From the IMG/VR virus record IMGVR_UViG_3300008952_002707, positions 1-64,000 of that record: a stretch of 64,000 bases of DNA; one strand, written 5' to 3'. The DNA comes from a virus. Within the stretch, counting starts at the first letter, position 1. The number at the start of each line of letters is the position of its first letter. The notes below the pieces were generated by a model. That model saw nothing but the letters and a program-made list of their open reading frames with translations, was not told the origin of the DNA and ran no database searches. Below are positions 21,621 through 55,400 of this stretch, in pieces. The position numbers and the translations under genes were made by a program.

Positions 21621-22223
21621 ATGGCAAAATATGATTTAAACATTTTACGCGCGAGCAACGAAAATCTTAAACACACTTGGAAGTCGCATCCCAACGTTCA
21701 TGCCGCCGTAACCCCCGGGGGAGATAAAGAGTATATGAAGCTCTTCCGCGAACACTACGATGGATTCACTGGTTCGATCCTAGAGATCGGCGCCGGGACT
21801 GGCTTTTTAGCTAATGAGATATTAACCCATTATCCTAATATAGATTATACGATTTTAGACATTGAAAAAAACATTGAAGAAGTGGTTAAGAAGACTTTGA
21901 TCGACCACCCGGAGGTGAAGTATATTACATCTGCTAACTATGAAAAGGTTTTTGATGAGCAATATGATATGCTATTAGAAACTCATTGTCTTTCGGAAAC
22001 TCCGCGATACTATTACACCAATCTTTTTAATAATTTATCTATAAAATCTTGTTTTGTCATCGACTACGGAGGCGATCCCACTGATCCTGGGTTTAATGAT
22101 TCACTCCTGGCATGGTTCGAGCAATTTCCTTCTAAACAAGTGTTAAAGAATTATAACTTAGCCGGCGGTAAACTGAAAGGCATCCCGGTTTATATAGGAA
22201 AGCCAGATGATAGCTCCGGCTGA
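21621..22223 (+). CDS. class I SAM-dependent methyltransferase, putative sugar O-methyltransferase
   Basis: A 200-residue methyltransferase: ILEIGAGTGFLANEIL at about 54-69 is motif I (SAM binding), DYTILDIEKN gives the acidic motif II residue. Later TFLSE-like segments (LLETHCLSET) fit the Rossmann core. The protein resembles the "putative sugar O-methyltransferase" group seen in LPS clusters. It overlaps the next gene by 17 bases. Confidence 0.75.
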   Translation: MAKYDLNILRASNENLKHTWKSHPNVHAAVTPGGDKEYMKLFREHYDGFTGSILEIGAGTGFLANEILTHYPNIDYTILDIEKNIEEVVKKTLIDHPEVKYITSANYEKVFDEQYDMLLETHCLSETPRYYYTNLFNNLSIKSCFVIDYGGDPTDPGFNDSLLAWFEQFPSKQVLKNYNLAGGKLKGIPVYIGKPDDSSG

Positions 22224-22935
22224 TATTAAGAACCCATTTGGTGATTATAAAAACAGTCACCTAGGTCGCTCTGGCGTCCTCTTCGGCTCGGGACCCTCAC
22301 TACTTCAGTTCGACACTACCAATCTTCCGGATAATGTTTTGCGCTTTGGAGTTAATGATCAGATTTTTCTAGATTTAGATTTAGATTATTGGTTTATGGG
22401 CGACTCCGTCCCTCAAGTCCCTGCTAAGTTTTGGGATCGGCTGCATCTATATAACAACTATACCCCTAAGCTTCAAAAGTTTATCCGTTTCTGCGATTGG
22501 AAAGATGACAGAAAAATCATCGTACCTCCGTATGGACAGGTGGCTCGCAATGGGCAGCTTCCGCTGGGAATGAAAAACTCTAAGTATTATGTAGCAGGAA
22601 GCGGCGGAAACCCAGAGACATGTCTGTTCAAAAAGGACATTGCCGAGGGTCATCTGACAGCTGTAGCATCTATCTCTTTTGAAGTGCTGCAATTTATGTT
22701 ATACTGTGGAATACAAAAGATCTACTTGGTAGGACATGATTGTGATTACACTAATGGAACTTTTGCAAAGATTATGATTGGCAAACAACAACAGGCTGAT
22801 TATTATATTTTGAGATACTGGAGACATGTAAAAGAGTGGATCGGACAGAACTATCCTGATGTACAGATTTACAGTATTAATCCGGTGGCCCTTGATATAT
22901 TTCCAGAAGCTCAGATAAAGGAGATAAAATGTTAG
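22207..22935 (+). CDS. sialyltransferase/MptE-like (GT42/DUF115 type) transferase
   Basis: A 242-residue protein. VLFGSGPSLLQFD (about 24-36) followed by LPDNVLRFGVNDQIF is the pattern of bacterial GT42 sialyltransferases such as Cst-II (GxGPSL, then F-x-x-N), shared with the DUF115/MptE superfamily. The segment QKIYLVGHDCDY near residue 173 fits the region with the catalytic acid residues. A CMP-sugar cytidylyltransferase lies 1.7 kb downstream, so it is a good candidate CMP-sugar-dependent transferase. Similarity is by eye only. Confidence 0.6.
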   Translation: MIAPADIKNPFGDYKNSHLGRSGVLFGSGPSLLQFDTTNLPDNVLRFGVNDQIFLDLDLDYWFMGDSVPQVPAKFWDRLHLYNNYTPKLQKFIRFCDWKDDRKIIVPPYGQVARNGQLPLGMKNSKYYVAGSGGNPETCLFKKDIAEGHLTAVASISFEVLQFMLYCGIQKIYLVGHDCDYTNGTFAKIMIGKQQQADYYILRYWRHVKEWIGQNYPDVQIYSINPVALDIFPEAQIKEIKC

Positions 22936-23543
22936 ATATAGAAAATAAAAATATTTTTATTGACTTTGATGGAGTAATATGCGATTCTAATGAGATAAAG
23001 AAGGGAAACATAGAAGCCGCGGCGGCGTTGTATGTGGACAAGAAAACAGCACGAACATTTAGAGAATATTTCATCGCCAATAACGGACTCCCGCGCGACC
23101 TAAAAACCAAAGAATTTTTTAAAGAAGATATGCAAGTTCCAACAGAAAAGATTTTAGAGGAGTATACAAAATTAAATGTAAATCTTTTAGATGCTCCACT
23201 AAACACAGGTCTCATACGGTTCTTAAAGAAAAATTCTAACGACACGGTGTATATTCTCTCTGGTGGAAGCCGCGAAGAAATAGAAGAATATTTAGAGAAA
23301 CAGGGTATAAGGGATTATTTTTATGAGATACTCTCTGCACCCACAACTAAGATTGAACATTTGAAAAATATAGAAAGGCGCCCCCATGATTTTTTTATAG
23401 GAGACTCGCGTTACGATTGTTTAGCCGCGACCGCGAGTGGGGTCAACTTCATCTTCATGAAGGGGCTGACGCAGGAGGCGCCGCCATTCAAGTTTTTAAG
23501 TGCCGACGATCAGGTTGTAGAGAATTTCATAGATTTATTATAA
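22929..23543 (+). CDS. HAD-family phosphatase
   Basis: A 204-residue HAD protein with a helical cap: nucleophile motif IFIDFDGVICDS (Asp12, Asp14), motif II YILSGGS, a Lys region, and FFIGDSRYDCLAA as motif IV. It resembles phosphoglycolate-phosphatase-type enzymes. In the acid-sugar sub-cluster it would dephosphorylate a sugar-acid phosphate, as KdsC or NanP do before CMP activation. It overlaps the previous gene by seven bases. Confidence 0.82.
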   Translation: MLDIENKNIFIDFDGVICDSNEIKKGNIEAAAALYVDKKTARTFREYFIANNGLPRDLKTKEFFKEDMQVPTEKILEEYTKLNVNLLDAPLNTGLIRFLKKNSNDTVYILSGGSREEIEEYLEKQGIRDYFYEILSAPTTKIEHLKNIERRPHDFFIGDSRYDCLAATASGVNFIFMKGLTQEAPPFKFLSADDQVVENFIDLL

Positions 23544-23568
23544 TAACTCATAAGGACGCTTATATCGC

Positions 23569-24630
23569 ATGACAAGGGAAAAAATAAAAGTAGGAATCAA
23601 TGGGCTTGGGCGTATTGGGAGAGCTATATTACGAAATAATCATTATAAAGAATTCCTTGACGTTAAGGTTATAAATGACATTAATCCTGATGCGCATAAT
23701 TTAGCTTATACTCTAAATTATGACACTCTATATCCTTCTCCATTCAAATTCAAAGTTGATGATACGATTCTTGTTAGTGGTAATTATCGTATAGCCATCT
23801 ATAGCTGTAGAAACATAGACGAAGTGCCATGGGAGGATCATGATCTTGATTATATCATCGATGCTTCCGGAGTGTATGAAAATGTTGTTAGAGCGAGAAA
23901 AATCCTAAGTCGAAAGAAGATCAAAAGAGTTTTTGTAACCCACTCCCCGGACATCGTAGATTTTCAGTTAGTATTGGGAGCTAACGAGGAAGAGTTAAAT
24001 CTCGATGAGCATTTTTTAATTTCTACTAGTATTTGTGATGCTACTGCTATTGCTCCCGTGTTGAAATTGATAAATGATAAGTATAAGATAACAAGTGGCT
24101 ATATAACAACGTTGCATCCTTGGTTAAGTTATCAAAATCTGCAAGATGGTCCCGCTAGCTCCTGGTCAGTTCCGGGAGAGATTTATCATCATTATGCATT
24201 GGGCCGTACGGCCATTGGGAATATGATTCCGAAGCCCACAACAGCAGTTACCCAAACTTGCAATGTTCTCAAGCGCCATAATATAACCGAGGAAATGATC
24301 GGGTCATTTTCCTATCGAACTCCTACTGCCATAGTTGGTAGCGCAGATGTTACCTTAAACGTCGCGACATCGGTTACATGTGACGCTTTAATAGCCTGTC
24401 TTACAGAATATGAAGAGAAACAGAAGTGGCAAATTATTAAGAATAATATCGAGCCCCTGGTGTCTTTGGATTTTAAGCAGATAGATTATTCCGCGATTGT
24501 AGATAACAGATGGACTAGTGTCATCGGGGACAATCTTATAAAAGTAGTTTTGTGGTATGATAACGAGTATGGTTATGCTGGGAAAGTTGTTGAGCAGATT
24601 AAGTATGTCAATGACTTGCTCGATGGGTAA
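23569..24630 (+). CDS. GAPDH-family dehydrogenase
   Basis: A 353-residue protein of the glyceraldehyde-3-phosphate/erythrose-4-phosphate dehydrogenase family. KVGINGLGRIGRAILRN is the NAD loop. The active-site helix reads SICDATAIAP, keeping the nucleophile (Cys156) but changing the usual TTN that follows; LHPWLSYQNLQDGP holds catalytic His183, and WYDNEYGYAGK near the end is typical. GSADVTLNVAT replaces the usual VDLT segment. Length is normal. An oxidation of a phosphorylated aldose or aldehyde acid within the acid-sugar sub-cluster is more likely than glycolysis. Confidence 0.88.
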   Translation: MTREKIKVGINGLGRIGRAILRNNHYKEFLDVKVINDINPDAHNLAYTLNYDTLYPSPFKFKVDDTILVSGNYRIAIYSCRNIDEVPWEDHDLDYIIDASGVYENVVRARKILSRKKIKRVFVTHSPDIVDFQLVLGANEEELNLDEHFLISTSICDATAIAPVLKLINDKYKITSGYITTLHPWLSYQNLQDGPASSWSVPGEIYHHYALGRTAIGNMIPKPTTAVTQTCNVLKRHNITEEMIGSFSYRTPTAIVGSADVTLNVATSVTCDALIACLTEYEEKQKWQIIKNNIEPLVSLDFKQIDYSAIVDNRWTSVIGDNLIKVVLWYDNEYGYAGKVVEQIKYVNDLLDG

Positions 24631-24635
24631 AATAT

Positions 24636-25388
24636 ATGGAAAATAAATTAGTAGCTATGATCCCAGCTCGGTTAGGAAGTAAAAGGGTCACAGGAAAGAG
24701 TTTGCGGCTGCTTAATAAGAAGCCCCTCATTTCTTATTGTATAGATGCCCTCAAGGAGACTGCCCACTTCTCTGACATCTGTATTAATTCAGACTCAGAA
24801 CTGTATGAGCAGGTAGCTCTTCGCGAGTCAGTTAAATTTTATAAAAGAAGACCAGAACTAGCTACCAGTGAATCGTTGATAGATGATTATATTTATGATT
24901 TTGTGTTGCATACAGATGCAGACTACCTGGCAATTGTAAATCCTACGTCTCCGTTTGTGACGTCCGATGAATATGATCGCGCATGGGAGCAGTATAGAAA
25001 TGGTGACTGCGATACCCTCTTATCATGCGAGAGAATTCAGACTCATTGTTTTTATCAAGGGATCCCGGTTAATTTCGACCGCGACGGGCAGCATCCAAGG
25101 TCGCAGGATTTGGAGCCTTTACTGGCATTGAATTTTGCTATAACAATAATTAATTGTGAGAAATATCGACAAAATTATGAGAAGCATCAATGGGGACTAT
25201 ATACTGGGACCTTGGGTTTTTTTGAAACAAGCGGCATAGGCTCCATAGATATCGATTACGAAGAGGATTTTCAACTGGCAGAGTTTATGTCTCAATTTAT
25301 GGAAGCTCAATCTTCTAATGAGTTTTCGAAAGAGTACGATCCAATAATACAGCCGCTCATTGATTCCGGTAGGGACATTACTAGTTGA
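24636..25388 (+). CDS. CMP-sugar (NeuA-like) cytidylyltransferase
   Basis: A 250-residue protein of the acylneuraminate/KDO cytidylyltransferase family: MIPARLGSKRVTGKSLRLL is the CTP-binding P-loop-like motif, INSDSELY and VNPTSPFVTSDEYD follow as in NeuA, and IDIDYEEDFQLAEF near the C terminus gives the conserved Asp residues for metal. It would activate a sialic-acid-like or other sugar acid as CMP derivative in the cytoplasm. No NeuB-like synthase is present in the window, so the acid's origin is open. Confidence 0.85.
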   Translation: MENKLVAMIPARLGSKRVTGKSLRLLNKKPLISYCIDALKETAHFSDICINSDSELYEQVALRESVKFYKRRPELATSESLIDDYIYDFVLHTDADYLAIVNPTSPFVTSDEYDRAWEQYRNGDCDTLLSCERIQTHCFYQGIPVNFDRDGQHPRSQDLEPLLALNFAITIINCEKYRQNYEKHQWGLYTGTLGFFETSGIGSIDIDYEEDFQLAEFMSQFMEAQSSNEFSKEYDPIIQPLIDSGRDITS

Positions 25389-26002
25389 AGCATGCTCTCC
25401 CAATAACTGAGAATATCCACTGTTTAGCTCTAAATTATAGGGGAGTGGGGGATAACTCACAAGATCCACTATATTTTGTTAAATCGTTAAATGCAATGTG
25501 TTTTAGTAATAGTCATGTTGAATATCCTCAACTATCAAATCAGTTTTGGACAGAGCCCGAGCTGGCAGTTTTTATTAGTGAGGAATGCCACAATGTGGAA
25601 GCGTCCGCCGTTATGGAAGTCATTCTTGGAGTTACTCTGGGAGCGGACCTCACTTGTCAGAATGTCCATCACCGCGATCATCACTTAGCGTTTTCAAAAA
25701 GCCGAAAAAACTTCTGCCCAGTGGTGGAAGAGTACCTTTCGCCTACGATTCTAGACCAATCCTCAGAATTCGTGCTCCGTACTTTTATAAACGGAAAACT
25801 TACTCAAGAGGGAAACACGAAGGACATGAAATACAACTTATTGGAATCTATATCTTATATATCAAGAATAACTGAGCTTAAGCGGGGAGACCTTATCTTA
25901 ACGGGAACGCCCGCCGGCGTAGAAAACAATATATTGCAACGTGGGGACAGAGTGCTGCACACACTTGATGATAAACTTGAATTACGATTTGAGGTGGTCT
26001 AA
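25385..26002 (+). CDS. fumarylacetoacetate hydrolase (FAH) family protein
   Basis: A 205-residue single-domain FAH protein. The start is a TTG that overlaps the preceding stop as TTGA; no in-frame ATG is nearby upstream of the conserved region. CLALNYRGV, YFVKSLNAMC, the metal-binding EPELAVFI, GVTLGADLTCQNV and GDLILTGTPAGV are all family hallmarks. Relatives hydrolyse or decarboxylate 2-oxo acids. In this operon it may act on a keto-acid precursor of the CMP-linked sugar. Confidence 0.85.
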   Translation: MKHALPITENIHCLALNYRGVGDNSQDPLYFVKSLNAMCFSNSHVEYPQLSNQFWTEPELAVFISEECHNVEASAVMEVILGVTLGADLTCQNVHHRDHHLAFSKSRKNFCPVVEEYLSPTILDQSSEFVLRTFINGKLTQEGNTKDMKYNLLESISYISRITELKRGDLILTGTPAGVENNILQRGDRVLHTLDDKLELRFEVV

Positions 26003-26004
26003 AA

Positions 26005-26949
26005 GTGTCAAAGATAGTTATAACGGATTATTTTTCAGCCCCGGGATCCCCGGAAACACGTATTTTGGGCAATTTAGTGGGGGTAGAGGCTACAGAAGAA
26101 ACCGAAGTCCTCATGGTCTGGCACGATATAATCGATGAAGACTATATTAAAGATATACCTCGCTTAAAAGGAGTACAGAGATACGGCGTCGGCTTCGACA
26201 ATTTAGATATTGATTACCTTAAATCGCGGGGGATTGTATGTTGCAACAACCCTGATTATGGAGTAGACGAGGTATCCGATACGGCATTGTCTATGATTTT
26301 AAATTTCACCCGTGGCACGACCAGTTACAACGAAAGGGCAAAATGCTTATATAACACATGGCAAGAGAACGTTATACCCACAGTTCGAAGACACTCAGAA
26401 ATGACACTAGGAATAATCGGCGCAGGGCGAATAGGAGGATCACTAATTCAAAAAGCCAAAGCTTTAAAGTTCAACATTGTTTTCTATGATAAGTATCAGC
26501 CGAGTGGAATTGAAAAGTTGCACGGTGTGCAGCGGATGGAATCCTTGGAGGACTTGTTGGGCGCATCAGATATTGTGTCAGTACATATACCCAGCAATGA
26601 CGAAACGAGGGGGATGATAAATAAAGAATTTATAGAGCGTATGAAAGACGACTCGATATTGGTTAATACTGCACGAGGTGATCTGATAGAAAGCTTGGAT
26701 GTCTTATACGACGGATTAAAGTCTAAAAAAATATCTAAGATAGCCTTGGACGTCCTCCCGGAGGAACCCCCGATTACTAGCCCCCTGATAAATGATTGGC
26801 GATCGAGCTTAGGTTGGATTAGGGATCGTCTTATTATTAATCCACATACGGCTTACTACTCCGTAGAGGCTATCGAAGAGATGAGAGTAAAAGCGGCAAC
26901 TAATGCACTGCGTATATTGAAAGGGCAAACACCTTTAAACATTGTATGA
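26005..26949 (+). CDS. D-2-hydroxyacid dehydrogenase (SerA/PdxB-like)
   Basis: A 314-residue enzyme with a GTG start two bases after the FAH stop. LGIIGAGRIGGSLI is the NAD loop. The catalytic trio is present: Arg224 in NTARGDLI, Glu253 in DVLPEEPP and His281 in NPHTAYYS. There is no ACT regulatory domain. It would interconvert a D-2-hydroxy acid and a 2-oxo acid. With the GAPDH-like enzyme and an aminotransferase it recalls the order of SerA/SerC or Epd/PdxB/SerC pathways, though the substrate is unknown. Confidence 0.88.
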   Translation: MSKIVITDYFSAPGSPETRILGNLVGVEATEETEVLMVWHDIIDEDYIKDIPRLKGVQRYGVGFDNLDIDYLKSRGIVCCNNPDYGVDEVSDTALSMILNFTRGTTSYNERAKCLYNTWQENVIPTVRRHSEMTLGIIGAGRIGGSLIQKAKALKFNIVFYDKYQPSGIEKLHGVQRMESLEDLLGASDIVSVHIPSNDETRGMINKEFIERMKDDSILVNTARGDLIESLDVLYDGLKSKKISKIALDVLPEEPPITSPLINDWRSSLGWIRDRLIINPHTAYYSVEAIEEMRVKAATNALRILKGQTPLNIV

Positions 26950-26986
26950 GATCCATTATAATATATAAAGCAAAAAGGGAAAAATA

Positions 26987-27622
26987 ATGAAACATAACCC
27001 ATATCAAGTAATCACGACTTTCGAGGAATTAATAGCCGAGTATTGCGGTGCACCCTATGCGGTAGCCGTAGACAACGCCACAAATGGCTTATTTTTATGC
27101 ATGAAATACCTAGGTCTAGAAGACCAAGAGATAACAATTCCGGCTATTACCTTCATGTCGGTACCCTGTGCTATTATTCATGCGGGAAATAAGGTAAATT
27201 TTGACAAGAATCATCCGTCTATTGTTGATGGAAAGCGCCTTCGAGGGCAGTATAAGCTGGAGCCCTTCCCTATCTGGGACAGCGCGCTGACCTTTAGCAA
27301 GAATATGTATATACCTGGGCAATTCCAGTGCCTTTCGTTTAGTGGTCCCCATAAGTTTTTAAAGCTTGGAAAGGGCGGGATGATTTTGACCGACAGCAAA
27401 GAGGCTTATGATTGGCTGAAACGCGCTGCCTATTTCGGACGTCGTCCCGTAGACCATAAAGTTGAGGAATTTGACATGCTTGGGTGGAATTATTATATGC
27501 TTCCCGAGATCGCCGCAAGGGGAGCTGTTTTGATGCTGGGCATAAAAGATGAAAATGAAGATCTGGAAATTGAATACCAAGATCTATCTAAATATAAAGT
27601 ATATACGGAGGGAAACCGATGA
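26987..27622 (+). CDS. half-length DegT-type aminotransferase-like protein
   Basis: A 211-residue protein matching only the large PLP domain of DegT/DnrJ/EryC1 enzymes (normally about 370). Asp98 in PIWDSAL and Lys123 in GPHKFLKLGKGG match the PLP-binding Asp and Schiff-base Lys. The C-terminal small domain is absent and the gene ends cleanly with an ATGA overlap to the next gene, so this is a settled short form rather than a fresh truncation. It may work as a minimal aminotransferase or with another subunit. Confidence 0.75.
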   Translation: MKHNPYQVITTFEELIAEYCGAPYAVAVDNATNGLFLCMKYLGLEDQEITIPAITFMSVPCAIIHAGNKVNFDKNHPSIVDGKRLRGQYKLEPFPIWDSALTFSKNMYIPGQFQCLSFSGPHKFLKLGKGGMILTDSKEAYDWLKRAAYFGRRPVDHKVEEFDMLGWNYYMLPEIAARGAVLMLGIKDENEDLEIEYQDLSKYKVYTEGNR

Positions 27623-46408: not shown

Positions 46409-49400
46409 ATGAGTATAAAGAAATATTTTGAAGTAGCAGAAAATATTCAGTCTCTCTCGAACAAATCTGCTCATGAGATAGCCTCGCAAGTCGAGTCCGC
46501 TGGCTACCACGAGCAAGATTTGATTCAAGAAGAGAGATTTATCTCTCGTGTTGATTTTTCAAAGCCGCAGAACTTTGCGCGCTGGGGATCGGCAGAAGAG
46601 TATTATAACGAAGCGCTCAAAAGAATCTATGAAGGTTACCCCTATGATGGGTCCCTCCGCGAAAGGAGCGAATGGCATAACGAGTCAATTGACATTGATC
46701 TGTATGTCTTTGAAAATAGATATCCTCGGACAACTGGATACGTTATCCTCTCAGCTGACGGCTGGGGAACGGGCAACCTTGTTGATGGTTATGGCGTTCC
46801 CGCAACCCCTGAATATATTTATGTAAAAGGCGGACCCAATCCCCATCAGGTAAAGGAAGCTCCCTATACTATTCAATTTACGGGCTCCAACTATTATGAG
46901 CCCTCCAAAAATCGAGGATCTAACCTTTCTTTAAACCTGGCCAGCAATGGAGCATCTCTAGAGTTCTGGCTTAAAAAGAGTGCTTTCCTGGAAGAGTCTC
47001 CCCGCGAGGTCATCTTTGACTTATGGAACGGGGAGAACTCGTCTTCTGCTGATTATGCACGCTTCCGGCTGGAGCTTACGGGAAACCTAACAGATGGATC
47101 AACACCGTTCCTGCTCACAGCAATGTCGGGAACTACAGGATTTTACCGACAGAACATCTCCAGCACCTCAATCACCAGTACTTCGGTGGGGAACGATACC
47201 TGGCAGCACTACGCAGTAACTCTTAAGTCTGCATCAGCCGGAGTAACCACAAGATTTTATGTCAACGGCGCCCTAGACAAAGAATCCACCCTAGGTTCTA
47301 CCGGCATAAATGATGTCGACAGCACAGCGCTCAGAGCGTACGTAGGAGCGCTTGTAACCGCTGTATCAGGAACTACTACCCCTAGCTCCACAAAAGCTGC
47401 TGACGGCAAGCTCTCGGCGTCTCTCGATGAATTCCGGTACTGGAAGACACAGAGATCATCTGAAGAGATCGGTCGCTTTTGGTTTACCCAAGTAGGAGGG
47501 GGCGTTAATACTGACCCAGTACCCTTTACGACTACCGAAGAATCTTCTAATGTTAATTTAGGCGTCTACTTTAAATTTAATGAAGGTATTACTGGACGAG
47601 CCGCAACCGATAGCGTGGTTCTGGATTACTCTGGACGCTGGTCTAATGGCGCCTGGACCGGATATACTTCGAACTCACGAAACACCGGCTCCGCGATAAT
47701 ATCCTCCAGCGCTGCTGTCCGAGAATTCGAAGATCCAATTATCTATTCTTTCCACCCTCGTGTAGAACTCCTAAGTACACAGCTCCAGTTATCTGGCTCG
47801 ACTTATGATGTAAACAATAATGCCTCGCTGTTCAAAACTATTCCTTCTTGGATTTCTGAGGAAGACGAGGAAGGCTCCGGAGATGTTAAAAAACTAACAC
47901 AGATATTGTCTAGTTATTTTGATAGCTTACACTTAAAAATAGAGAGCCTAAATAAGCTTAAAGATATCCGTTATTTGAGCGGAAGCGCTGAGAAGCCGCT
48001 CCCGTTTGCTGAGAAACTTTTATCTAATTACGGATTGGTCGCTCCGGACTTATTCCTGGATGCTGACATCCTTGAGAAGCTATTGGATCGCAGTGAAGAC
48101 AAGGTTTATGAAAAGTCGCTTCACGATATCAAGAATATTATTTATCAAAACATCTATAACAACCTCAATTATATCTATAAGTCTAAGGGAACCGAAAAGT
48201 CATTCCGTAATTTAATTCGCTGCTTTGGTATTGACGACGAACTCGTCAAAATTAATATGTACGCGAATGATGTTACTTACGAGTTACAAAACAATCGCCG
48301 CAACGTTGTAGTGGCTGACAAATTTGTCAACTTCAATAACAGCGACAACACCAAAGCTACAGTTTACAATTATGCAGACCCTACCAATTCCAACTCAGTT
48401 AGTTATATTGATGCTAATTCTAGTTTGACCGGGGGATTTGCAACCACGCTAGAGACAGAGGTGCTGTTTCCCCTTAAAATATCAGAGGACTCACCGTCGT
48501 ATGTGAACACTAATATAATTAGTTCTTCATTGTTTGGTGTCCACGGCACCACACTGTCCGCGACCAAAACAACTTGGCCTGGGGACGACACCGTTAACTT
48601 CCAAGTTTATGCTGTCCGCGACGAACTATATTCAGATAATGTAAAATTTGTTCTGACTAGCTCAACGGGGGGTTATATCCCGAAGTTGTCGAGTAGCCTC
48701 TATCAACAGGTCTACAACAATACGAGATGGAATCTTGCCGTACGGATAAAGCCAGAAACTTACCCGATGAAGGGATTGATTAATAGTGCAAGCAGCAATT
48801 ACGTAGTCGAACTCCATGGTATTCAAGCAGAAGCTGGCGTTATCCTAGAGGAATTTACAGTTTCTGCTAGTATTACAGCGCCTAGACCTTCTTTCGTGAC
48901 TGGCAGCAAGAGAGTGTTTGTTGGAGCCCATCGTTCTAACTTCACGGGATCTACCGTCCTAGATATGACTGATGTTAAGGTGAACGCTTGCCGCTACTGG
49001 CTAGACTATGTTGATGATGAAGCATTGAGGGGTCATATTCTTGATACGGAAAATTATGGTGCATTACAGCCCCATCTATATGCGTTTGAATTTGATACGT
49101 CTGCTTCTTATGGAGATGTGACCAAATATGATACGCTGGTGTTCAACTGGGAGTTCCTAACAAACACGGGCTCTAGTGCCGGCGGAACCTTTATGGTCGA
49201 CGATCTATCTTCCGGGTCTGCCGACTTTACTAGGTTCGGAAGTCTAGGAGGCATTCTTAATAAGCAGTACACCGCTAGTGGCTCCTTCTTCTTACCATCC
49301 TCGACAAAGTCCATCGATAAAGACTTTGTGATTTCTTCCAAGCTCAACCTTCCTGAGAATGTCAGAGCCGAAGACATGGTTAAAGTATTAAACGCACAGG

Positions 49401-52400
49401 AACAAGATGTCTTTACTACAGAAAGCCGCCCTGTAAACTATTACTTCGCTTTTGAAAAGAGCATGTATCAAGTGATCTCCGAAGAGATCCTCAATTCATT
49501 TGCTAATCTAAAAGATTTTCATAACTTAATCGGAGATGTTGTAGAGCAATACCGACCAGAATATAAACAACTTGCTTTTATGAGGCAAAAATTCTTTGAA
49601 AACGTTGCCAATCAAGAGTTGGATTTTGAGAAGTTTTATGAGTATTACAAGTGGTTCGATAGCTCTCTGTCTTTAATGTTAGGACAACTTGTACCAGCAT
49701 CCGCAGATTTCTCGAATAATGTCCGTACTATGGTAGAAAATCATGTTCTGGAAAGACCAAAGTACCGGAATAAATTTCCAATCCTTCAAAGGAAGGGAGG
49801 AAACGACATCACTGGCGCCGTCGAGGGCGGAGGCGATGGCACTGCAATGGGCTCACCGGATGATTTCCCTCAGGGATCTCTTCTGTTTGCCAACACCTCG
49901 TTAACCAAACGACAAATTGGATCATCACGAACTCCTCAGATTAACAGCTGGAAGCATTTCCATGCCCCCATACGAGAGACTTCTCTCGGTCCAACTAAAT
50001 CATTATTGTTTGATGAGTCCGATGACACGAATGTCACAGCCGGAACTGCTGCACAGTGGCAGACTGATTTAGCTGATGCGTATACCAACGGTGTTTCCGT
50101 ATCCTTTTGGTTCAATATAAGCAGCTTCGCTTCCGGCACGGAACAGGTATTTAATCTCGGAATGATTAAGACGTCGTACCCCTACTATCAAGGCATACAA
50201 ATGTTTCTTTACGACGTCGCGACAAAACCATCCGTGTATGTCCAGGTCCATACCGCTGGGTGGTCTGTTTCCAATAGCACCAACGTACGCAGCAGTGGAT
50301 TGAACCTCGGGACATGGTATAATGTTGTCCTTACGATCCCAGCTGCTGCCATTAATGGAACCGGTGGAGACACTCCAAATATGTATATCAATGGGGGTGT
50401 CGACATGCCCTACAGTCACGCTGATTCTGTTGTCAATTGGACCACAATGGATTTGGGGGCACGCGGCGTGACGATAGGCGCCAAGCCCGCCGGCTCAGGA
50501 CTCAGTAATAACTCATTTGACGGATATATGTGTGATGTGGCTGTCTGGAACAAAGAACTCACTAGTGCCGAAGTGACCGAGATTTATGCCTCTGGAGAAC
50601 GTACCAACTTAAGCCTCGCATCGTGTGTTGGTAATCTTCTGTCCTGGTGGAAGCTTGGCTCCGGCACCGGTGACACTTATAATGGGGCGATGAGCAATGA
50701 GGTTGTAGGCGGACCTTCTGGAACCCCTAATGCTTTCGCCTCGTCAGCCGCTATAGCATCTGTTTCTCCTCCAGCTGTTTCTCCCTACGACCCAGCTGCA
50801 CAACATATCTTGGATATGGCATGGCGCAACAAAAACATTTACTGGCAACGGTACCGATCCGGAAGCGCCGAGCCCAAGCCCACTGTTGCATCCAACACGG
50901 TCCGCAAAGATTTGTTAACCGCGATCAAGAAGTCGTATGATCGAAGTGTTAACACACCTGTTAAATTTGGGGCAGAAGGATATGTGACCTTCGGCGGTGT
51001 TGCCCGTCCGCCCAATAATAAGCCCAACTATACGTTTGCTCACTGCAGCCCCTATGGTCCGATGGTATCGGGATCTAATGTTCCAATTAACATTATGGTT
51101 GGATTTAATGAAGGTGTCGAAGAACTCATTGATTCGCCAGATGAATATTATCCCACCTTTAAGCAACGCCTAGGATTCGGAATGAACCCCACCATCAATA
51201 TTGATGAAGTTGATTCCACAACCGCGTTTGATGGTAACTTATATGCTCCATTTAGTATGTACAGCTCGTCGGTTGAGACAGGCTACAATGCTACAGTCGT
51301 AACAACCTATAAGTCTGGCACCATGCTTACCAACCTTCATAATGACTTTGTGGATTCACATGATACCCCGGCCCAGGGTCCGTTTACTGAGAAGTTTGTG
51401 GGTGGTCGGTTCTTCCGTCACACCGAACCAAATGCCGGGAGTGACACAAGGACGACCCGCGCCGAAGGCTTCCGGCTAGAACTTGGAACTATTGCTCCCG
51501 GGAAAGCCGGTGCACTGGGTGTCGTCCCTCCCAACTATCCATTCAGCGACACACTTGAGAGTGAGTTAACTAATGATGCTGGGACTGTCCTCGGCTGGCT
51601 CAAAGATGTGCCCATTGCACAGCGCTTCCGAGATGAAACTGCCAAGCGACCCTTAAACATCAAGAACATCTTGATGACAACTGCCTCGGTGGGGACACGC
51701 TTGAGCGGAACGATTACTCATAATCCAATCGGCAACTACCAGAAGAACTATCAGGTTATTAGCACTGGTGGTCGCATGATCAACGACCCATTCTTCCAAG
51801 ATCAGTCTTTTGATTTTGCTTTGACTCCTCAGCTCCCCATATCACGATTGACATCTACTCGCGTAGTAAACACAAAAGCAATATCTATAGATGGGGGTGA
51901 TTATTATACCTTCTCGGCACCGTCTGCTATGAACACCAACACGGCAGAAACGTGGTCCTTTTGGTTAAACTGCCAAGATATAACCAACGGGGGCAATCTC
52001 CTCGTTGCTGGGGCGGCCGGAGCCGGCTCGTATATTAGCATCCTGACCGCCGCCGCCGGTAGCAAACTGAAGTTCGTAGCCGACTTTAGTACCGACGATG
52101 GTGATTGGAGGACAGATTCCGCAGTAACCACTGGAGACGTATGGGTTCATATAGCAATAACTTATGACGGAAGTTCAACGAGCAACGACCCTGTGATCTA
52201 TGTTAATGGGGAGAGAGTAGCTATTACTGAATTAACTACTCCTGTCGGCACCCGGGTGGCATGGTCTGGAAGCCCAACATTGGGCTATAACAAATCTTCC
52301 GGTTTCGAGGGCTATGTTTCTGATGCTGCATTTTACAACAATATATTGCTCCCAGTTCAAGTGAGTGCCATTTATGGTAACGGAACTTTAGATTTGATCA

Positions 52401-55400
52401 ATTCCGGGCCCTCCCCCGAAAATCTTATTATGTGGTGGCGCTGCGGAGATGGGGCAACAGACACCGCCGCCACCATTGTGGATCAAAAGGGTAACGCAAA
52501 TCTTACAGCCGGCGGCAGTCCAACTCTGGTGGATATAACGCCTGCTGACTGTTTCCGCGCGACCGCCCCTCTCGGCCCGCTGAACTCTGTGGCTCGAAAC
52601 GCGTTCGCCCTCCCCGACCGAGCCGGCTCAAACTCGAATCAAACTATCATCGTCAATCACTTCAGCGCTCCTGGAGAATATAAGACACTTTCCCGCGGCT
52701 ATCTTGATCCTGCGCACGAAGAATTGTCAGCATACAATGCCTCTCCCTATCGAAACCGCGGAGTTATTGATTATGGTCTATCTGGTTCTGCCTCCGCAGA
52801 CCCCAGTATCGCGGGCTCCATCCGCGTCGTCGACCAACTTGGCAAGAACCGCGGACTCAATCAGTTATCAACATTGCATTCGGACCCTTATGGTATTGAC
52901 TCAGCATATGGTGTAGTGACGAAACCATCAGCTGGCACCCCGGGAACCACACGTATCGACGGCGGAGGTGGATATTCCATCACCCCCTCATGGACAAAGA
53001 CAAACAGAAATCGTCGCCGGCGGATGGAGAACACCGCACTACAGACGGCCATGGCAGAAGGCAACGTAACTGGGTCAGTCTATGATAACCTCTATGTCCA
53101 GCATGCTATCCCGCAGTCAGAAGCACAGTACGCTTGGGTTACAGCTTCCATGGCATATGGCACCTCGATCTTCGGATTAGATACTCCCACATGCACCAGC
53201 GCTTCCACCATGTCACAATTGTTGACTGCCTCAATTGGTTATGTTGGCGGCGACTTTGTGGGTTTGCGCGGCAAGATCATTGACAACGTAAACCTAACAA
53301 CCCATACTTTAGGATTTGAGAGCCCTGCGATTACTCCGTTCAACTATGTGAGTTCCGCGACACCTAATGTCGGGGGATCGGGAAGCTACGTCGCTCTAGG
53401 CCAGAGCGGCGACTTCGAGGACTGGAACGATCTTATAGGCGGGGGACATCCTTCCACCATCAACCCAATAACCATATCTATGTGGATATATCCCCGCGGA
53501 GACAACCCCGACGGGTCGGGACGCCTGTTCCAATTCGGCGACGGGAGCCAACGGCGCCTTTCCTGGGACAACACGTCGACTAGTCAGATTTCATGGCGCT
53601 TCCTTTACGGCGGCGGCAGCACCTTCGTCATCCGAACACCACCTGGGAGTGTTCCTCTTAAAGTTTGGACTCACGTTGTTGCAACCTTTGGAGGAGGAAC
53701 CGCGGGAGACCTTAAAGTATACCTAAACGGGCTTCTCTCATCCGGGGATTCATATTACGCCAAAGCAGTGGATGCTCCCACTGCCGGGTCTCCTCCAATC
53801 CTCTTTAATCGAATAACGGGCATCATCGCCGGCGGCGCGTCCTACCAAGCCTACGATCGTGGCTTTTATGGGAATTTTGCCAATACTGCAATTTGGAACC
53901 GAGAACTTAATGCCGAAGAGGTTGAAGCCCTTTACAACAATGGCGGACGAATTGAGCTTACCAACGTAGCATCAATGCGCAAAAACCTGCTTGCCTGGTA
54001 TCGGTTCAACAGCGACTATGGAGATAGCACCGCCACCGCTGATACCTCCACCACCGCCACTATGCGGAATCAGGCAGTATGGGACGTATACGGATCAAAT
54101 CCTAAAATTCCAGTAGCAGCTACCTTGGCTACAAGCTATGGCACTACCGTGCTCACTTCCTCCGTGATCTTAACGGATAACAAATTGACATCTGGATCCT
54201 CAGGGGATATGGGACTATCTTCAAGTGCTTATTCAAACGCATATATCAACTCTAATGTGTGGTGGGAAGCACCTACATTTGTAAATGAGCATGATTACCT
54301 TAACGCTCTTATATTAAACCGCGGTGGACCATATGGCAACCCCACTTGGAAACAGATCCGCGGCATGGATCGCCCCGTCGTTAGGAAAATGAGAGAGAAC
54401 AATCTTATCGGTGTCGCCATTGATCCTGTTCCTTTCACCAACTCAGTTGGTACCGCTCAGCACCCCACCAGACCAAACACGTTTGTAGATTACTATGAGT
54501 CTCCGGTCGAGAATAGTAAAAATCCTATCTACTTTTATTTTGAAGACAACACCACTAACTCCGACAGCGCCAATAATCTTATTGTGACGACACCATACGG
54601 CAACGAATTAGAGCACTTCTCTCATGCGGGACTCAATACGCGGCTCGGGCTTAAAGTGGACCTCACCCAGCTAGATGCATATCGCTCTGTTAAGAATTTT
54701 ACGATGGACAGTGCTCTCAGTGTCCTCATAAAATATAGTGAGAGAATTTATCCTTCTACAAAGAATGCTTATCGCAAGAACATCCGCGGCAGGACTGAAT
54801 ACAATATTGATAATATTTGGAACAATAACAGAGAATATCGCAGCATTCCGCTGGGCTCACTGAGCGGTGCCTTTGTTTACTCTGGCTCTCTAGGCGGGGC
54901 GTACTCCAATATAGGCGTTCCAACAGCTAGTATTTGGCCACTTGACGCTCACCTTGACTTTGCCACCACTGGCTCCGCTCTCGGCACCGACGGCGCGGGA
55001 CAGCTCCTGAACCTGTACTCTAGGTATAGTTGTTCTGTGGTCTCTGATGGCACGAAGCGAACAAACATTAATGCTGCCCCGACTTATGCTTACAGGACCC
55101 AGTACGGCTGGGCTGCTAGTGCTACAGGGTCCGGCGGACAGGATCCCCTATACATGGGCGACGCCCCCTGGACTGCTGCCGAGACTTTCGGCAAGCCCCC
55201 CTATGAGACCTACCAGTCGTATGCGGATAGAATCCGATCGATAGGAAAGGACTATTCAATTCTACCTGAATTCAGGATAAGTCCACTGATGAGTACCTAT
55301 GTTGATACTCACGAGAGTAACTTCCTCGCGGATCTGAATAATATTTTCGAATTAACAGGTGCGGCAGTTAGCAGTAGTGTAGAGGATAAATTCTATACCA

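Follow-up and report, generated by a model that had tools for sequence, protein, structure and literature searches.

A viral gene cassette as a candidate route to a CMP-linked sugar acid without NeuB or KdsA

Introduction

How could a virus provide an acidic sugar linked to cytidine monophosphate (CMP) without the condensing enzyme that usually builds it? Many glycans on bacterial surfaces are capped with CMP-linked sugar acids; nearly all of those acids now known are, to our knowledge, made by synthases dependent on phosphoenolpyruvate (PEP). The question is raised by a window of 64,000 nucleotides, positions 1-64000 of the 71,182-base uncultured-virus record IMGVR_UViG_3300008952_002707 (perhaps itself a fragment). 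There, a first-pass annotation had read seven consecutive genes (22207-27622) as one pathway to a CMP-linked acid sugar, in which a GAPDH-like enzyme and a D-2-hydroxyacid dehydrogenase would oxidise a sugar phosphate, as Epd and PdxB do, and a DegT-type protein would aminate it. Neither NeuB nor a DAHP_synth_1/KdsA-type synthase has a match in the 71-kb record, which is possibly incomplete.

Here we find that five of these seven genes, at 22929-26949, are a single unit. In our judgement it is an evenly balanced proposal that this cassette is a route to a CMP-activated 2-oxo sugar acid (ulosonic acid) that dispenses with NeuB and KdsA, and that the protein encoded at 22207 transfers the product.

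Results

A conserved five-gene cassette

The seven open reading frames (ORFs) lie on a single strand almost without gaps, which bears out the annotated run of genes. Profile searches agree with the family names given to them, except that the "GT42/MptE-like" label of the first gene is sub-threshold in Pfam and finds its counterpart in a fold match by structure prediction. On the + strand, the unit opens with a HAD-family phosphatase (22929..23543; Pfam HAD_2, E 9e-10; motifs DFDGV, LSGG and GDSRYD) and a GAPDH-like dehydrogenase (23569..24630; Gp_dh_N and Gp_dh_C, E 3e-21 and 4e-22), continues with a CMP synthetase (cytidylyltransferase) of the NeuA/PseF/KdsB type (24636..25388; CTP_transf_3, 2e-20) and a short FAH-superfamily enzyme (25385..26002; FAA_hydrolase, 8e-37), and closes with a D-2-hydroxyacid dehydrogenase (26005..26949; 2-Hacid_dh_C, 4e-42) whose R-E-H catalytic residues are kept. 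Compared with the near-identical contig L001, the ratio of nonsynonymous to synonymous substitution (dN/dS) is 0.00-0.44 across the preceding transferase gene and the five cassette genes, few changes being available for the estimate.

With the GAPDH-like protein as query, relatives 37-55% identical to it were confined to a handful of sources: a further three viral contig groups (L003, L095, L096), Prochlorococcus (single-cell genomes L013, L014 and L016, plus L101 from a search of that genus), another cyanobacterium (L162, a 1.69-Mb contig), Alphaproteobacteria (L015, L156, L157, L158, L159) and a planctomycete (L017). They are rare, being present in 4 of 249 genomes searched for the Prochlorococcus genus, 2 of 385 for the alphaproteobacterial class and 1 of 343 for the Planctomycetota. 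Among annotated phages and plasmids, searches at the DNA and protein levels gave just ordinary GAPDH or Epd and one distant CMP-sialic acid synthetase.

Of 15 distinct loci, 13 have genes for both a CMP synthetase and a D-2-hydroxyacid dehydrogenase within 6 kb of the GAPDH-like gene, and the other two run into contig ends: L003 stops 515 bases past the GAPDH-like gene, inside a CMP synthetase, and L013 begins 78 bases before it, with the dehydrogenase present. By contrast, not one of 75 loci with an ordinary GAPDH carries either gene within that distance under the same threshold; queries for this control were partly taken from the loci themselves, and each CMP synthetase was matched by a counterpart from a different locus as well. 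The arrangement is far from chance, and the expectation that the gene set would be found elsewhere is borne out for the unit without DegT.

Gene order is equally regular. Four loci (L016, L157, L158, L162) read phosphatase, GAPDH-like, CMP synthetase, HpcH/HpaI aldolase and dehydrogenase, and four others (L015, L095, L096, L156) share the last four genes in that order, with a small HAD gene inserted in L095. The window reads phosphatase, GAPDH-like, CMP synthetase, FAH and dehydrogenase, and Prochlorococcus L101 carries the same set; the two loci share 58% identity in the CMP synthetase and 43% in the FAH protein. A HAD gene of the same type adjoins the GAPDH-like gene in L016, L101, L157, L158 and L162 and sits inside the cluster in L015, and the D-2-hydroxyacid dehydrogenase adjoins it in every locus not cut off before that point. 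Since the 175-kb phage L096 holds just a compact block of five (GAPDH-like, CMP synthetase, HpaI, dehydrogenase, HAD), five genes are probably enough to start from a common metabolite.

Two observations were made alongside. Beside the cassette in three Alphaproteobacteria (L015:13428-15785, L158:6549-8893, L157:2586-4930) lies a gene for an HMGL-like (DRE-TIM) aldolase, whose C-terminal part resembles the MptE/GT42-like family by eye and has no Pfam match there; a KdsB-like CMP synthetase follows, and this may be another PEP-independent CMP-acid pathway. Separately, the GAPDH-like gene of one alphaproteobacterium (L155 / L159:8469-9479) contains one in-frame TAG, probably a sign of decay or a sequencing error.

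The CMP synthetase and its transferase

The closest PDB match of the CMP synthetase is NeuA (6e-17). Its NCBIfam PseF score, 74.1 bits against an equivalog cut-off of 205.7, places it outside PseF, and its KdsB match is weaker than the Pfam one. The D-x-D metal motif is present as IDID near the C-terminal end (EID in L096). As anticipated in the first-pass annotation, linkage to this enzyme indicates that the product of the conserved gene set is probably CMP-activated.

Upstream of the cassette, the protein at 22207..22935 (+ strand) reaches 17.5 bits with the GT42/MptE-like Pfam family, below the cut-off of 34.6, and Pfam offers nothing beyond this sub-threshold match to place it among GT42 sialyltransferases by sequence. 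Its predicted structure (predicted local distance difference test, pLDDT, 75) is more telling: the best fold match is a Maf glycosyltransferase (Z 12.0, 197 aligned residues, 3.8 Å), behind which come Methanocaldococcus jannaschii HPPK (Z 10.4) and two CMP-sialic-acid transferases, Cst-II and Cst-I (Z about 10; for Cst-II, Foldseek E 6e-6). By the fold of this model the protein belongs to the GT42/Maf/HPPK group, and we predict that it transfers a CMP-activated acid sugar. The suggestion of a CMP-sugar-acid type of transferase beside the cassette thus holds, on the strength of the Maf/Cst fold and of linkage to CMP synthetases in relatives.

That linkage comes from six loci of viruses related to this one (L107, L108, L109, L110, L112, L124) in which a transferase homologue has a CMP synthetase 1-2 kb downstream. 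In each it is a different CMP synthetase, and the GAPDH cassette is not there, so the transferase partners with a CMP synthetase whatever pathway supplies it, the cassettes being exchanged. In the three of these that were read (L107:5720-7362, also L110 and L112), an SIS-isomerase/HAD fusion precedes the CMP synthetase, between the transferase and downstream sugar genes; here the site holds a second CMP-acid module of another kind. Pfam does not recognise the fusion at E 0.001, and its SIS and HAD parts are assigned from reading the sequence.

A cytidylyltransferase might instead activate an open-chain hydroxy or oxo acid, such as glycerate or a C4 acid, and give a phosphodiester-type substituent. 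C3 and C4 acids could be made by the two dehydrogenases, and the cassette CMP synthetases are diverse among loci. Nearly all of them, however, keep the NeuA/KdsB-type D-x-D motif, and the transferase has a sialyltransferase/Maf fold; both traits are typical of ulosonic acids, and we consider the open-chain product very improbable.

Two dehydrogenases with altered phosphate contacts

The GAPDH-like protein falls in a clade of its own: a tree of 27 proteins unites the 14 members of the subfamily (support 100/100) and leaves the GapA and Epd of E. coli, along with ordinary GAPDHs, outside. Its best NCBIfam match is type I GAPDH, at 205 bits against a cut-off of 367, and Epd scores 145-159 bits against equivalog cut-offs of 530-539. 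The catalytic Cys156 and His183 are kept, as is the Arg231-type residue throughout the clade, which is further marked by the motifs S-I-C-D and H-P-(W/L)-L-x-Y-Q-N and by an S-loop insertion of about 10 residues. The S-C-T-T of GAPDH and Epd has become I-C-D-A or I-C-D-T: Ser148 and Thr150 are replaced by Ile and Asp, and Thr179 by Leu (S148I/T150D/T179L), which sets the protein apart from type I GAPDH in spite of its catalytic pair. Tree, scores and site residues together rule out an ordinary glycolytic GAPDH or an Epd. In GAPDH, Ser148 and Thr150 contact inorganic phosphate; their loss, together with the new invariant Asp beside the catalytic Cys, suggests that the acyl enzyme is released by water.

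A similar change is seen in the D-2-hydroxyacid dehydrogenase. Where SerA and PdxB share an Arg-Ser pair, Trp-His is found here (Trp-Asn in one case), the PdxB score is 84 bits against 434, and the best PDB matches are CtBP proteins. Because phosphate-contact residues are altered in both dehydrogenases, 3-phosphoglycerate and 4-phosphoerythronate are argued against as substrates; the replacements fit unphosphorylated ones, and by the alignments phosphate is probably gone, or bound differently, at these steps. The earlier idea of Epd-PdxB logic on phosphorylated substrates is therefore not supported, in view of these replacements (Ser148/Thr150 to Ile/Asp, Thr179 to Leu, Arg-Ser to Trp-His).

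The aldolase slot

The short FAH protein keeps the metal site (E57, E59, D88) and K105. Aligned to E. coli YcgM, it lacks the His-Glu lid dyad of YcgM and FAHD1, and so does its L101 relative; with metal residues and lysine present and the dyad missing, neither fits the FAH-superfamily hydrolases and decarboxylases. For FAHD1, a Mg-bound pyruvate enolate has been described as the common intermediate of its reactions, and the dyad proposed to make the hydrolytic water (PMC8398924). A role as C-C hydrolase is disfavoured without that dyad.

In most relatives, the exact position of the FAH gene is taken by an HpcH/HpaI aldolase, and every cassette copy of it retains the catalytic residues (E-H, R, E, D). 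Such aldolases act through a metal-bound 2-oxoacid enolate, and this occupancy leads us to include a C-C or enolate step in the pathway. The earlier statement that no condensing enzyme is present is thus only half right: NeuB and KdsA are absent from the cassette, but most relatives hold an aldolase in the FAH slot. That FAH and HpaI do equivalent work is what we infer from their shared position.

In vitro, some HpcH/HpaI aldolases form 3,4-dihydroxy-2-oxo acids from hydroxypyruvate and glyceraldehyde or erythrose. In a screen of 571 class II aldolases, 19 took hydroxypyruvate as donor, one of them giving good yields with erythrose and with glyceraldehyde in D or L form, and an aromatic residue was reported to aid hydroxypyruvate use in one aldolase (PMC7610986). 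The metal Asp is preceded by Phe or Tyr in every cassette aldolase and by Ala or Ser in E. coli RhmA and GarL. We give this no weight as a sign of hydroxypyruvate use, since it could not be shown to be the same position as in the published enzyme.

The main rival explanation preserves the carbon chain, and is closest to the scheme of the first-pass annotation, minus amination. Starting from a pentose or tetrose phosphate, the GAPDH-like enzyme would oxidise C1 and the hydroxyacid dehydrogenase C2; removal of the phosphate and activation with CMP would complete the route, turning ribose-5-phosphate, for example, into CMP-pent-2-ulosonate, with HpaI or FAH just an enolising epimerase or tautomerase at C3. 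A single central metabolite then accounts for both dehydrogenases, the phosphatase and the CMP synthetase; keto-enol tautomerase activity is known for FAH relatives (YcgM annotation; PMC12176266), and the GAPDH-like enzyme keeps its Arg231-type residue. Yet the phosphate-contact residues are replaced in both dehydrogenases, and the HpaI copies retain a full aldolase site, beyond what an epimerase needs. We regard chain-preserving oxidation as rather unlikely.

As a separate observation, L101:2391-4716 holds a second HpaI aldolase gene beside an inositol-monophosphatase-like gene and one for an SIS-type isomerase. A KdsB-like gene lies at the edge, and this is possibly a further aldolase-based CMP-acid pathway.

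Proposed pathway

We now propose a scheme for the cassette, chosen as the simplest one that uses all five enzymes; every reaction and all substrates are predicted from the genes, their order and co-occurrence, the active-site residues kept or lost and the transferase fold. The HAD phosphatase would free an aldehyde sugar, for instance glyceraldehyde from glyceraldehyde-3-phosphate. The GAPDH-like enzyme would oxidise the aldehyde to a cysteine thioester, released by water rather than phosphate to leave an acid such as glycerate, whose 2-hydroxyl the D-2-hydroxyacid dehydrogenase would then oxidise to give, for example, the 2-oxoacid hydroxypyruvate. In most relatives the HpcH/HpaI aldolase, or in this virus and one Prochlorococcus the lid-less FAH enzyme, would form the metal-bound enolate of the 2-oxoacid and join it to an aldehyde, yielding a 2-ulosonic acid. 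This would be activated by the NeuA-like enzyme with cytidine triphosphate (CTP), and the neighbouring GT42/Maf-like protein (22207) would put the product on a glycan.

Confidence differs between the parts. Linkage lends good support to the idea of a CMP-linked acid; the substrate, the length of its chain and the FAH step are inferred. That a CMP-linked 2-oxo acid is made with no PEP synthase is, we think, somewhat probable; the aldol version with hydroxypyruvate is possible and offered tentatively. The full picture, in which CMP-ulosonic acids arise from triose units by HpcH/HpaI aldol addition, the lid-less FAH fold makes the same C-C bond here and the whole is a mobile marine glycan cassette, is on balance doubtful.

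Several points weigh against the scheme. D-2-hydroxyacid dehydrogenases usually favour reduction. We know of no FAH-family aldolase, and the predicted structure of the short FAH protein is unusable (pLDDT 33). L014 has a longer FAH together with a short-chain dehydrogenase (SDR), which suggests variation of the product or a different step, and neither HpaI nor FAH was found in the planctomycete L017 within the 21 kb read. Lastly, NeuB lies 2-10 kb from the cassette in L015, L016, L017 and L156, although a link of the cassette to an ordinary nonulosonic acid, which this proximity might imply, is less likely.

Such a link would take the form of decoration: the CMP synthetase would use a host NeuB or KdsA product, ordinary nonulosonic acid or Kdo (3-deoxy-D-manno-oct-2-ulosonic acid), and the other four enzymes would make a glycerate-like side group or its precursor. 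Besides the four nearby cases, NeuB occurs elsewhere in G052, G1306 and phage G008. However, the neighbouring NeuB clusters of L015, L016/L103 and L156 appear to hold a CMP synthetase of their own, the window's virus record has the cassette without NeuB, some 30 kb separate the two in phage L096, and NeuB was not seen in the carriers G001 and G002, both incomplete single-cell genomes. A host NeuB feeding the cytidylyltransferase had been foreseen as a possible refutation; the two carriers without NeuB and the separate CMP synthetases speak against it, the four close loci for it, and overall we judge decoration improbable.

Neighbouring genes

The last gene of the annotated run, a short DegT-type protein (26987..27622, + strand; Pfam DegT 1e-18, in two pieces), lies outside the cassette and adjoins a downstream radical-SAM gene. 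At about 200-211 residues, it keeps the pyridoxal-phosphate lysine and aspartate motifs and lacks part of the main domain and the C-terminal domain. This miniature DegT is conserved and widespread in phages, with 33 viral contigs carrying it (L113-L145), and DegT adjoins the radical-SAM gene in relatives without the GAPDH-like gene (L107, L108, L109, L115, L118, L119, L121-L124). We have therefore removed the amination step once attributed to it: the protein is part of a DegT-radical-SAM unit found in phages without the cassette, and no linkage to the GAPDH cassette of other loci supports a sugar aminotransferase as pathway member.

The window carries late sigma factor, PhoH and baseplate genes, and its sugar genes form a long run from about 13.5 to 33 kb. 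One ORF of 3914 codons (46409-58153) probably encodes a very large structural protein of tail or fibre.

Discussion

If the proposed route is real, it would hint at unrecognised acidic sugars on marine microbes, with Prochlorococcus, marine alphaproteobacteria and phages sharing one compact way of making them, and the cassette would offer a gene signature for finding such sugars. It would also mean that phages swap whole CMP-sugar modules behind one transferase type. Within CMP-sugar-acid biosynthesis the possible surprise is a FAH-fold enzyme in place of an aldolase, which would be the first FAH-fold aldolase known to us.

Nothing relevant to this gene combination turned up in the literature searched, most subscription journals not being covered. 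The E. coli K3 polysaccharide contains 4-deoxy-2-hexulosonic acid, with a gene locus then not known (PMC10433991). No link could be made from this chemical clue to the cassette.

With NeuB-NeuA, PseI-PseF and the Kdo pathway (KdsD-KdsA-KdsC-KdsB), the cassette shares its two last steps, in the family of the CMP synthetase and the fold of the transferase, and with the Kdo route also a HAD phosphatase (KdsC). Where the sialic, pseudaminic, legionaminic and Kdo pathways employ a PEP-dependent condensing enzyme, however, it has two dehydrogenases and HpaI or FAH. Epd-PdxB-SerC, of the vitamin B6 route dependent on 1-deoxy-D-xylulose-5-phosphate (DXP), likewise oxidises an aldehyde with a GAPDH fold and then a 2-hydroxy acid, but in the cassette the GAPDH-fold enzyme belongs to another clade, the phosphate contacts of both enzymes are changed, the conserved unit includes neither SerC nor DegT, and the product is probably CMP-activated. 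In non-phosphorylative rhamnose and fucose degradation, HpaI aldolase and FAH (accompanied by an SDR, as in L014) replace each other at equivalent positions; that route is catabolic, whereas the cassette sits by a CMP synthetase and its short FAH has no hydrolytic dyad. We know of no case in nature in which a CMP-sugar acid is made by way of a hydroxypyruvate-using HpcH/HpaI enzyme. The C-C chemistry that we propose is nonetheless the same as that of HpcH/HpaI aldolases with hydroxypyruvate in vitro, and the catalytic residues are kept in the cassette (de Berardinis 2017, reviewed in PMC7610986).

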